Below, piece after piece: positions 48,804 through 51,057 of a DNA stretch of 64,000 nt; position 1 is the stretch's first letter; each line of letters opens with the position of its first letter. Source of the DNA: Thiobacter sp. AK1 (lineage in GTDB: Bacteria; Pseudomonadota; Gammaproteobacteria; Burkholderiales; Thiobacteraceae); assembly GCF_039822265.1 (NCBI RefSeq), contig NZ_JBAJEX010000002.1, positions 248,001 through 312,000 of the forward strand, read 5' to 3'. The translations under genes and the position numbers were made by a program. The notes beneath the pieces were generated by a model. The model saw nothing but the letters and a program-made list of their open reading frames with translations. It did no database searches and was not told the origin of the DNA.

Positions 48804-49430
48804 TCACCAGTAGGCAAAGAGCCGCCCGCCTTCCACCTTGGTCTCGAAGCGCTTCAAGGGCTCTTTGCCCACGGCGATACATTCGCCGGTGGTGATGTCG
48901 AACTTCCAGTGATGCTTGGGACAGGTGAGAGTCGTCCCCTCCAGCGCCAGGTGGGGGATGTTGGTCACCTGGTGGGGACAGCGGCTATCATAGACGCGCA
49001 ATTCCTCTCCCTTGCGATAGACGAACAGCTCGCGGCCATCGCAGGGCACGCGCGCGGTCTCGCCGTCTTGGAAGCGCTCCACCGGCCCCACGTCATGCCA
49101 GGTGGCTTCGCGCGTGAGGTTTTCCGGGCGGAATTCGGGCATGTCCATCTCCAAGATGATTTCCGCCGCCCACACGATCTTGGCCAGCCCCAAGGCCGGG
49201 AAGGCCATGAGCAGCGCATCGATCACCTCGATGGGTTTCACGCCGTCGCGCAGCGCCCGTGTCAGATACTGCTTGAAACCCGCCTCGGTTTGGGCATGAA
49301 CCTTGGTGATCACTGAAATGAGATCGCGCGTCTTCGGGTCTAGGTATTTGCCCGCGTCCTTGAGAAACTTGAAATAGTGACCGAGGGCATCGCCGCGGGC
49401 GGCGACGAGATAGTTGAGAGCGTCGCTCAT
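48804..49430 (-). CDS. Carboxymuconolactone decarboxylase-like/Rieske [2Fe-2S] fusion protein
   Basis: This 208-residue protein joins two domains. Residues 1-100 are an all-helical carboxymuconolactone decarboxylase/AhpD-like domain (LDPKTRDLISVITKVHAQTEAGFKQYL). It has no Cys, so the AhpD redox pair is absent. Residues 112-208 are a Rieske ferredoxin domain with ligands Cys151-x-His153 and Cys170-x-x-His173. The likely role is electron transfer linked to an unknown substrate. ATG 49430 has an AGGAAC leader; a longer frame is not supported. It lies upstream of phosphoribulokinase on the same strand, but that gene has its own promoter. Confidence 0.82.
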   Translation of the reverse strand: MSDALNYLVAARGDALGHYFKFLKDAGKYLDPKTRDLISVITKVHAQTEAGFKQYLTRALRDGVKPIEVIDALLMAFPALGLAKIVWAAEIILEMDMPEFRPENLTREATWHDVGPVERFQDGETARVPCDGRELFVYRKGEELRVYDSRCPHQVTNIPHLALEGTTLTCPKHHWKFDITTGECIAVGKEPLKRFETKVEGGRLFAYW

Positions 49431-49601
49431 TGAGGTTCCTTTCTCTAGGTCGTTGACGAAAAAATCGGCTGGCATTATCAGCCCCTGGGCTCCGGCCTTG
49501 CCAGATTCAGGGTTTTTCTACGCGGCAATGGCGCGCTTCGTCCCCGGCGCGCGCGGCAAGAACCGGCATGCAAGAAGGCGGCGATGACGAACGCAAGCTT
49601 T

Positions 49602-49752
49602 TATTGAGCGTTACGTAAGTCGTTGACAGGCTGCGTAAGTCAAGCGTCATTCCCGCGAAAGCGGGAATCCAGGGTATTCCTCGCCATGTTCCTGGGTCCC
49701 CGCTTGCGCGGGGACGACACAAAGGTGTCACCTACTTACGTAATGCTCAATA
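49602..49752. mobile_element. 151-bp MITE-like element with two opposed REP-type hairpins
   Basis: The ends are 19-bp inverted repeats with one mismatch (49602-49620 and 49734-49752, TATTGAGC(G/A)TTACGTAAGT). Each begins or ends in TA, which could be a duplicated TA target. Inside are two oppositely oriented hairpins, ATTCCCGCGAAAGCGGGAAT and GTCCCCGCTTGCGCGGGGAC, each with a CCAGG side motif. No coding capacity is present. The gap 49431-49806 holds nothing else recognisable. Confidence 0.7.
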
Positions 49753-49806
49753 GTTCCGCCGGGGCGGGCCGGTCCTTAAATGGCGTGTTGGGAAGCCCGT
49801 CCGGCT

Positions 49807-51057
49807 TCACTCGTTCCGGCGGCCGACGCGCACATCCAATTGCTTGAGCTTGCGGTAAAGATGGGTGCGCTCCAGTCCGACCGCGTCCGCCACACGGCTC
49901 ATGTTGCCCCCTGCCTTGGCGATGTGGTGCTCGAAATAGAGTTTCTCGAACGCATCGCGCGCTTCCCGCAGGGGCAGATCCAGGTCCAGTGGCAAGACCC
50001 GCCCCGCGGCAGCGGCCGACGCCAACAGCGGCACCACGTCTTCCAGGCCGATTTCCTCCGTCAAAGCCGCCAGGGCCGCGCTGCGCACCACGTTTTCCAG
50101 CTCATGCAGGTTGCCCGGCCAGTCGTGCTGGCGCAGGGCGTTGAGAGCCGCCGTGCTGAAACGGCGAACGGGCACGCTGCGCGCCTCCACCAGGCGTTCC
50201 AGCGACGCGCGGGCAATGTCCGGAATGTCCTCGCGATGGCTGCGTAAAGGGGGCACCGCAACGGTGACGGCCGAGAGCGCATGGTAGAGGTCCGCATCGA
50301 AGCCGCCGCCCTCGGCAAGCTGTTTGAGCGCGGCGGTGGCACTGGTCACCAGGCGTGTCTCGGTGCGCGCCAGCTTGGGCAACACGAGCGCGAGGCCCTT
50401 TTGCTCCAGCCGGTTGAGGCGGGCCACGTCATGCAGGTAGATGAGTCCACCCTTGGCCTGCTGCAGAACCTCCAAGGGATTGTCCAGCAGCCACGTGGTG
50501 TCCTCCGGCGCAAGCCACGGGGTGCCGGGTGTGTGCAAAACCCGCGCGCAATGCTCGAAGCCGCAGCCGGACTCGCCCAGCAGGAGCACCGGCTCTCGCT
50601 GGGCCGCCACCTGCGCCAGCCGGTTGCGCAGCGCCGTCACCACCGGTCCGCTACCCAGCGCCGCCAACCCCTCCCGTGGGCGCGCCAGCGCCTCGGCGCG
50701 CTTGAGCGCGCGGCTCACCGTGTGTAGCAGCTTCTGCAGCGCTATGGGTTTCTCCAGGAAATCATAAGCGCCGATGCGGGTGGCCTCCACGGCGGTGTCG
50801 ATGGTGCCGTGACCCGACATCATCACCACGGGCATGGTGAGCTGGCCGTTGGCGGCCCATTCTTTGAGCAGGGTGATGCCATCGGTATCCGGCATCCAAA
50901 TGTCCAGCAGCACCAGGTCGGGCGGGTTGGCATCGCGCAGGCTGCGCGCCTGTTGGGCGCTTTCCGCCAGCCATACCTGGTGGCCCTCGTCATGCAGGAT
51001 TTCCTGCAGGAGCTCGCGGATGCCTGCTTCGTCGTCGACAACGAGAATGTTGCTCAT
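49807..51057 (-). CDS. ntrX: NtrX-like response regulator with degenerate AAA+ domain
   Basis: This 416-residue regulator has a normal receiver (Asp52, VLLDIWMPD; Lys103, EKP) and a Fis-type DNA-binding tail (NMSRVADAVGLERTHLYRKL). The central domain keeps the overall AAA+ layout but Walker A reads GESGCGFE (161-168, Lys replaced by Phe) and Walker B reads GGLIYLHD. The GAFTGA loop is missing. It should therefore bind DNA without ATP-driven sigma-54 activation. It follows ntrY by 7 bp and was probably named NtrX in related betaproteobacteria. Confidence 0.88.
   Translation of the reverse strand: MSNILVVDDEAGIRELLQEILHDEGHQVWLAESAQQARSLRDANPPDLVLLDIWMPDTDGITLLKEWAANGQLTMPVVMMSGHGTIDTAVEATRIGAYDFLEKPIALQKLLHTVSRALKRAEALARPREGLAALGSGPVVTALRNRLAQVAAQREPVLLLGESGCGFEHCARVLHTPGTPWLAPEDTTWLLDNPLEVLQQAKGGLIYLHDVARLNRLEQKGLALVLPKLARTETRLVTSATAALKQLAEGGGFDADLYHALSAVTVAVPPLRSHREDIPDIARASLERLVEARSVPVRRFSTAALNALRQHDWPGNLHELENVVRSAALAALTEEIGLEDVVPLLASAAAAGRVLPLDLDLPLREARDAFEKLYFEHHIAKAGGNMSRVADAVGLERTHLYRKLKQLDVRVGRRNE

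Follow-up and report, generated by a model that had tools for sequence, protein, structure and literature searches.

Our analysis indicates that the 151-bp element in the window (the whole 64,000-nucleotide stretch of Thiobacter sp. AK1 DNA that was analysed) is very probably a non-autonomous, TA-targeting MITE of the IS630-family group, which carries a dimer of CGTC-type REPs as its core. This reading draws on the dispersal of the element with differing flanks, the TA at its tips, an empty repeat unit with a single TA, ends of the IS630 type that include the TGACA box, and the same layout in a second genome. MITEs of the IS630 type are already known. MITEs and REPs in general are also known, as is a REP inside a MITE (QMITE2; PMC5896051), and what appears to be new are the carriers of CGTC REPs found here. 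Searches of open-access PMC text showed no paper joining CGTC REPs to IS630 or IS5 ends.

The sequence-only reading had described nearly perfect 19-bp TIRs around two opposed hairpins, a left hairpin of the Neisseria dRS3 pattern and a TA at each edge, all of which are present in the sequence (Table 1). The TIRs, TATTGAGCGTTACGTAAGT and TATTGAGCATTACGTAAGT, are identical at 18 of 19 bases, and both edges of the element are TA. Hairpin 1 (ATTCCCGC-GAAA-GCGGGAAT) matches ATTCCC-N8-GGGAAT, hairpin 2 (GTCCCCGC-TTGC-GCGGGGAC) lies in the opposite orientation, and each has CCAGG on its inner side; both are REPs of the dRS3 (CGTC) kind. Two further small hairpins are formed by 49623-49627/49639-49643 and 49716-49720/49725-49729. 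As single-stranded DNA, the element folds at -44.8 kcal/mol, compared with -19.9 +/- 2.8 kcal/mol in 200 shuffles (z -8.9; 0/200 as good). Its neighbours are those named previously, and both are on the minus strand. On the right, at a distance of 54 bp, is the end of a gene for an NtrX-like regulator (Response_reg and sigma-54 AAA), which adjoins an NtrY-like kinase gene; on the left, a CMD-Rieske fusion gene begins at a distance of 126 bp.

Table 1. Parts of the element and their positions in the window.
Feature	Position	Strand	Description
Whole element including both target TAs	49602..49752	+	151 bp; 147-bp core between the TAs
Left IS630-type end	49602..49628	+	19-bp TIR and the stretch up to TGACA
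Small left hairpin TTGAC..GTCAA	49623..49643	+	Weakest helix of the element
REP 1 (CGTC-1 / dRS3 type)	49645..49671	+	CGTC tag, 8-bp stem ATTCCCGC/GCGGGAAT, 4-base loop, CCA tail
REP 2, opposed, heterodimer partner of REP 1	49691..49719	-	TGTC tag, 8-bp stem GTCCCCGC/GCGGGGAC, inner-side CCAGG
REP dimer core	49645..49718	.	Element positions 44-117; the dimer or one REP is the part matched in other genomes of the order
Small right hairpin GACAC..GTGTC	49716..49729	+	Overlaps the REP 2 tag
Right IS630-type end	49726..49752	-	Outer 29 bases compared with the Sulfuritalea IS end

The claim that the element is a MITE was supported; it is dispersed in many copies in the Thiobacter sp. AK1 genome (G000; 2.54 Mb, a draft in 32 contigs). 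Matches to the element amounted to 67 rows, both strands counted. End sequences with at most three mismatches were found 98 times, against 0 in the reversed control, and the REP hairpin with at most one mismatch 110 times, against 0 in the control, most hairpins being counted on both strands. A profile search yielded 80 matches, namely 47 full-length, 19 partial with an end and 14 without an end; this inventory covers the G000 stretches fetched from the element, REP-hairpin and end-sequence matches, and counts one copy with a duplicated REP as two partial matches. The copy in question (L109 562-745; G000:C1:156861-157044) has its first REP duplicated head to tail inside the element. With 151 bp, TIRs identical at 18/19 bases and 47 full copies, the element has the features by which bacterial MITEs are recognized (70-300 bp, noncoding, TIRs, multicopy). 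A genome search for copies had been proposed earlier, with a single copy conserved at the same locus in all relatives as the outcome that would speak against a MITE. That outcome was not obtained: the fetched stretches hold 47 full-length copies, and in G001, the one further genome of the genus examined, the single match is a 30-bp REP stretch.

The 47 full-length copies comprise a group of recent copies and a tail of older ones. Leaving gaps out, 34 are 0-6.6% from the consensus and 13 are 9-35% from it; three of the 34 have no substitution, although one of the three has lost a single base. The flanks vary among the 30 copies printed, with the exception of L028 and L030, whose matching flanks suggest that this copy was duplicated along with its surroundings. 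No interrupted gene could be verified at the junctions, judging from the junction ORFs of 30 copies. Copy L025 (L093 4406-4556) lies between two genes that resemble hpnC and hpnD. The upstream frame takes its stop codon from the edge of this copy, and the next start codon follows 9 bp after its end. The 14 of 80 matches that are REPs without MITE ends are partly clustered, and because of them another route of REP spread, or decay, must exist. One such bare cluster of CGTC REPs, at L095 5990-6800 (G000:C6:121.5-122.3 kb), contains stems of the types ATTCCCGC and ATTCCGGGCGCC interleaved.

These copy numbers contradict a fixed regulatory or terminator element kept at the locus by selection, to which the strong fold and the position between two codirectional genes would otherwise lend some support. 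Dozens of copies are seated in differing flanks, the match in G001 is a REP stretch only, and Rfam gave no match at E up to 1 in 49300-50000, so that we give this explanation hardly any weight. A secondary effect of the MITE on neighbouring transcripts is possible.

The TIRs had been suspected to belong to a transposase of the IS630 kind, and this was borne out by comparison with insertion sequences. Over about 27 bp, the MITE ends (TATTGAG..TTACGTAA..TGACA) are the ends of IS630-family insertion sequences of Burkholderiales. A TIR scan of the genome contig collection returned 14 stretches, with a chance expectation estimated at about as many; 9 of the 14 lay in one cyanobacterial sequence context, and only the end of a contig from a Sulfuritalea MAG was relevant. 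This contig (L148) stops 127 bases from the start of TATTGAGCGTTACGTAAGTAGATGACATC, and the 127-base stretch encodes a transposase C-terminus on the opposite strand. The left MITE end matches the Sulfuritalea IS end at 25/29 bases and the right one at 26/29, with the TGACA box kept, whereas the best of about 78,000 positions of G001 DNA reached 17/29. When 399 genomes of the order were searched with the Sulfuritalea end, six genomes besides G000 matched, and complete elements were read in two of them (L164, 1112 bp; L170, 1101 bp). Both have two overlapping frames, one with HTH_33 and one with DDE_3. The L170 protein scores above the NCBIfam IS630 (NF033545) cut-off (135.9 vs 100 bits) and the L164 protein just under it (98.6 vs 100 bits). 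With 57% over 28 aa (E 7.5e-4), the L170 protein also matches the Sulfuritalea C-terminus; the 32-aa piece of this C-terminus gave no match in Pfam, NCBIfam or the phage collection.

Further support comes from plasmid pBN2 of P. aromaticivorans, where an annotated IS630 family transposase (L255) lies between such ends (13/17 and 16/17, compared with 10 in each reversed control). In a copy from Caballeronia (L254), only the left end is seen (14/17; right 9/17). A Paraburkholderia plasmid fragment, the single match to the 32-aa C-terminus, was rejected, as it is without such ends. Plasmid searches returned no match with the Sulfuritalea end and, with the whole MITE, two records matched in the REP part only. 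The motif common to the IS and the MITE is TATTGAGnRTTACGTAA, about 5 bases and TGACA, with variations. L164, L170 and L255 have the same ends and the same TA tips as the MITE; the IS630 elements are about 1.1 kb long with HTH_33 and DDE_3 frames, whereas the MITE is without a gene and has a REP dimer.

With regard to the target site, the proposed preference for TA was supported. The alignment reaches both tips in 36 of the 47 full copies, and TA is found at both tips in all 36, while the remaining 11 have at least one tip altered or not reached. An empty site can be compared at copy L196 (G017:C5:159.7 kb) of a second genome, G017, which belongs to another family of the order. This copy has somewhat degenerate tips and interrupts a short tandem repeat. 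The repeat unit with the copy in it is ..GGTAGTTC-TA-element-TA-AACTAGCC.., and the empty unit beside it reads ..GGTAGTCC-TA-AATTAGCC.., with a single TA and the whole unit absent. In G000, the tandem copies L013 and L011 have one TA in common, and a paralogue (L230) of the insertion site L026 is empty. The basis for TA duplication is therefore one base-resolved comparison of repeat units, one tandem pair and one paralogue that fits a 2-bp duplication in length only, its dinucleotide being other than TA. No further clear empty site was found when the joined flanks of 38 copies (30 from G000 and 8 from G017) were compared with all fetched loci. An empty site in a related strain had been called for; G017 supplies a single-TA empty unit, while G001, aligned at two sites, lacks the element there and shows no clean empty site, the intergenic DNA being too diverged.

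The empty unit also bears on the idea that REP dimers entered palindromes that were already in place, in which case the outer inverted repeat would be a target and not part of a mobile unit. The 14 bare REP matches in G000 fit this idea, and there is a published precedent: the CGTC-1 dimers of Halothiobacillus neapolitanus lie within 41-bp palindromes, which Di Nocera et al. treat as targets (PMC3733652). There, too, a REP dimer is nested in an outer inverted repeat, but the outer sequence is another one, it is called a target palindrome, and no transposase is assigned to it. For the element described here, a palindromic target is contradicted by the empty unit of G017, from which one TA is missing together with the whole unit. 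The outer repeats, moreover, equal IS630 ends along 27-29 bp, the TGACA box among them. In the G000 end list, inspected by eye, single degenerate ends occur, but no two ends were seen to face each other with no REP in the middle. We therefore regard insertion into a palindromic target as very improbable, and the MITE reading suggests that a palindrome enclosing a REP dimer can consist of transposon ends and need not be a target.

A transposase with matching ends, which the sequence-only reading had proposed to look for, was found as the IS630 type in other genomes; none was found in the draft assembly of G000, where the ends of the RAYT-type genes differ. The single DDE_3 match in G000 is a decayed remnant of the IS630 family that shares 39% identity with the L170 protein. 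This remnant was rejected as a partner, since it is decayed and has no such ends beside it except for a MITE copy about 1 kb away. No IS630-group transposase was found in G017, which is also a draft, or in G001. The G049 genome gave five matches to the IS630 protein query, three of them over the whole query. A partner transposase in the same genome, which is usual for a MITE without defining it, is thus absent from what was found in G000, G017 and G001. Given that G000 has recent copies and no partner was found there, the partner may have been lost, be unassembled or have been transient. In the mechanism that we propose, an IS630 transposase acting in trans, whose source element was not found among the assembled contigs, would bind the ends of about 27 bp (TTACGTAA and the TGACA box). 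The bound unit would be excised and then pasted into a TA, and the REP dimer would multiply as passenger cargo of the MITE. The dimer may have entered by insertion into the MITE, or IS ends may have been captured on either side of it.

REP doublets had also been linked to RAYT transposases, and this link was not supported. Two RAYT-type genes are present in G000, near-identical tandem duplicates of 312 aa (Y1_Tnp, NF047646) at L094 2315-4575 (G000:C6:138.3-140.6 kb), and they are what speaks for a REPIN moved by a RAYT tyrosine transposase, with the outer TIRs incidental. Neither tips with TA nor ends of the IS630 type are known as features of RAYT elements. The RAYT gene of a REPIN is flanked by the same REP; here the pair is instead enclosed by inverted repeats AAAGTAAAGGCCTGACCCCA, and no CGTC REP was found in the 7 kb around the genes with at most one mismatch in CGTCATTCC[CG]. 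CGTC REPs are, in addition, reported not to flank RAYT genes (PMC3733652). The probability of a RAYT-moved REPIN is accordingly judged to be slight in the extreme. In locus L095, which is rich in REPs, the AAAGTAAAGGCCTGACCCCA repeat occurs five more times, close to REP clusters. The gene pair is therefore a tyrosine transposase that is flanked by TIRs and has a dispersed repeat of its own, and it resembles the TIR-flanked arrangement that PMC3733652 names TIRYT.

The MITE has its own version in G017, which is 149 bp long and has the same layout as in G000: end, small hairpin, REP, spacer, REP, small hairpin, end. G017 gave nine matches at 84-100% identity over 133-152 bp, seven weaker long ones and 14 shorter ones at the REP level. 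The structure was examined on 20 chosen sequences (13 from the 47 copies of G000 and 7 from G017) and was drawn on one of them. In the drawn structure, 81.7% of cells are paired; sliding the structure gives 32-41%, and shuffling the partners gives 78.1%. The score for covariation is 0.124 vs 0.078 and the number of cells with changes on both sides is 37 vs 22.4, both above all 500 shuffles, which keep the relatedness of the sequences in. No excess was found in pairs with changes on both sides (9 vs 10.0 in shuffles) or in further pair types (30 vs 29.1). Among these sequences, the small left hairpin has 57% of cells paired, and the other helices 76-92%.

The core itself belongs to a known class. 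CGTC REPs are one of two REP superfamilies, and the CGTC-1 type, which includes the Neisseria dRS3, is defined by its tag, an 8-bp stem, a 4-base loop and a CCA tail (PMC3733652). Element positions 44-117 are a dimer of this type, with a CGTC/TGTC tag, and agree with the published CGTC-1 REPs in all of these features and in the opposed arrangement of the dimer; what differs is that the dimer is here enclosed by IS630-type ends and multiplies with them. The suggestion of a composite of two repeat families, now IS630-type ends and a CGTC REP dimer, was supported. A search of the order found matches in 111 of 399 genomes, G000 included, with the best two candidates per genome scored. Among the matches listed outside G000, only two, both of G017, reach an end of the element and the rest lie in or around the dimer, although MITE ends in other genomes may have been concealed by REP matches in this search. 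Correia/NEMIS elements of Neisseria, small TA-flanked palindromic MITEs, share a likeness with the element; they are not known to have a dRS3 core inside, and their end sequence is presumably another one. QMITE2 of Coxiella burnetii also has a REP inside a MITE with TIRs, and smaller REP-like versions, but its REP is of the GTAG type and its direct repeats are 7-11 nt, not a TA target as here (PMC5896051, a text in which the term IS630 does not occur).

Finally, we identified a second shell around dimers of the same kind. Among 30 REP loci from other genomes (L113-L142), six (L119, L124, L128, L134, L135 and L138) match TAGGGAAACACTGATTAAT on both sides of the dimer at no fewer than 12 of 19 bases, against 0/30 in the reversed control, with spans of 114-118 bp. 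Single sides matching at 14/19 or better numbered 10/60, against 0/60 in the reversed control. TAGGGAAACACTGATTAAT corresponds to the TA-flanked ends of IS5-family elements on two Burkholderia plasmids, these being the two elements examined out of 4 plasmid records (E 0.02 to 0.3). The transposase of L223 is far above the IS5 cut-off (355 vs 140 bits), and that of L222 is IS5 by annotation. An IS5-family shell around the same kind of REP dimer as the IS630 shell points to separate acquisition. CGTC REP dimers would thus be carried by MITEs that belong to two or more families of DDE transposases, and inside such shells the REPs could do without a dedicated transposase. CGTC REPs, including dRS3, were described in 2013 as apparently without a dedicated transposase (PMC3733652), and the question left open at that time, whether other transposases move them, is now directly testable with two matching families. 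Going further, CGTC dimers might spread wholly or largely as repeatedly captured cores of DDE MITEs (IS630, IS5 and further shells), hence without a transposase, and many bare dimers might be remnants of decayed shells; we regard this generalization as doubtful, if conceivable.

Outer inverted repeats were also assessed at 29 loci, which overlap the 30 above; 20 were kept and nine were dropped, as they showed no dimer by pattern. In seven of the 20, the outer inverted repeats of the dimer reach or exceed the 95th percentile of mismatched flanks, compared with an expectation of about one, and 13 have none above the control. Three of the seven are IS5-shell loci and four (L116, L120, L126 and L139) have other repeats. 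The outer repeat of L122 is not above the control. No IS was matched to the outer repeats of L116/L120/L122, L126 or L139, and plasmid searches with three such repeats were empty or gave matches resembling chance or coding sequence. CGTC dimers in other genomes are seen near further, differing inverted repeats, such as CAATGCCGTTCAGTTA in L116 and CTGATTATGTCTCTGCTTCAGAAGC in L139.
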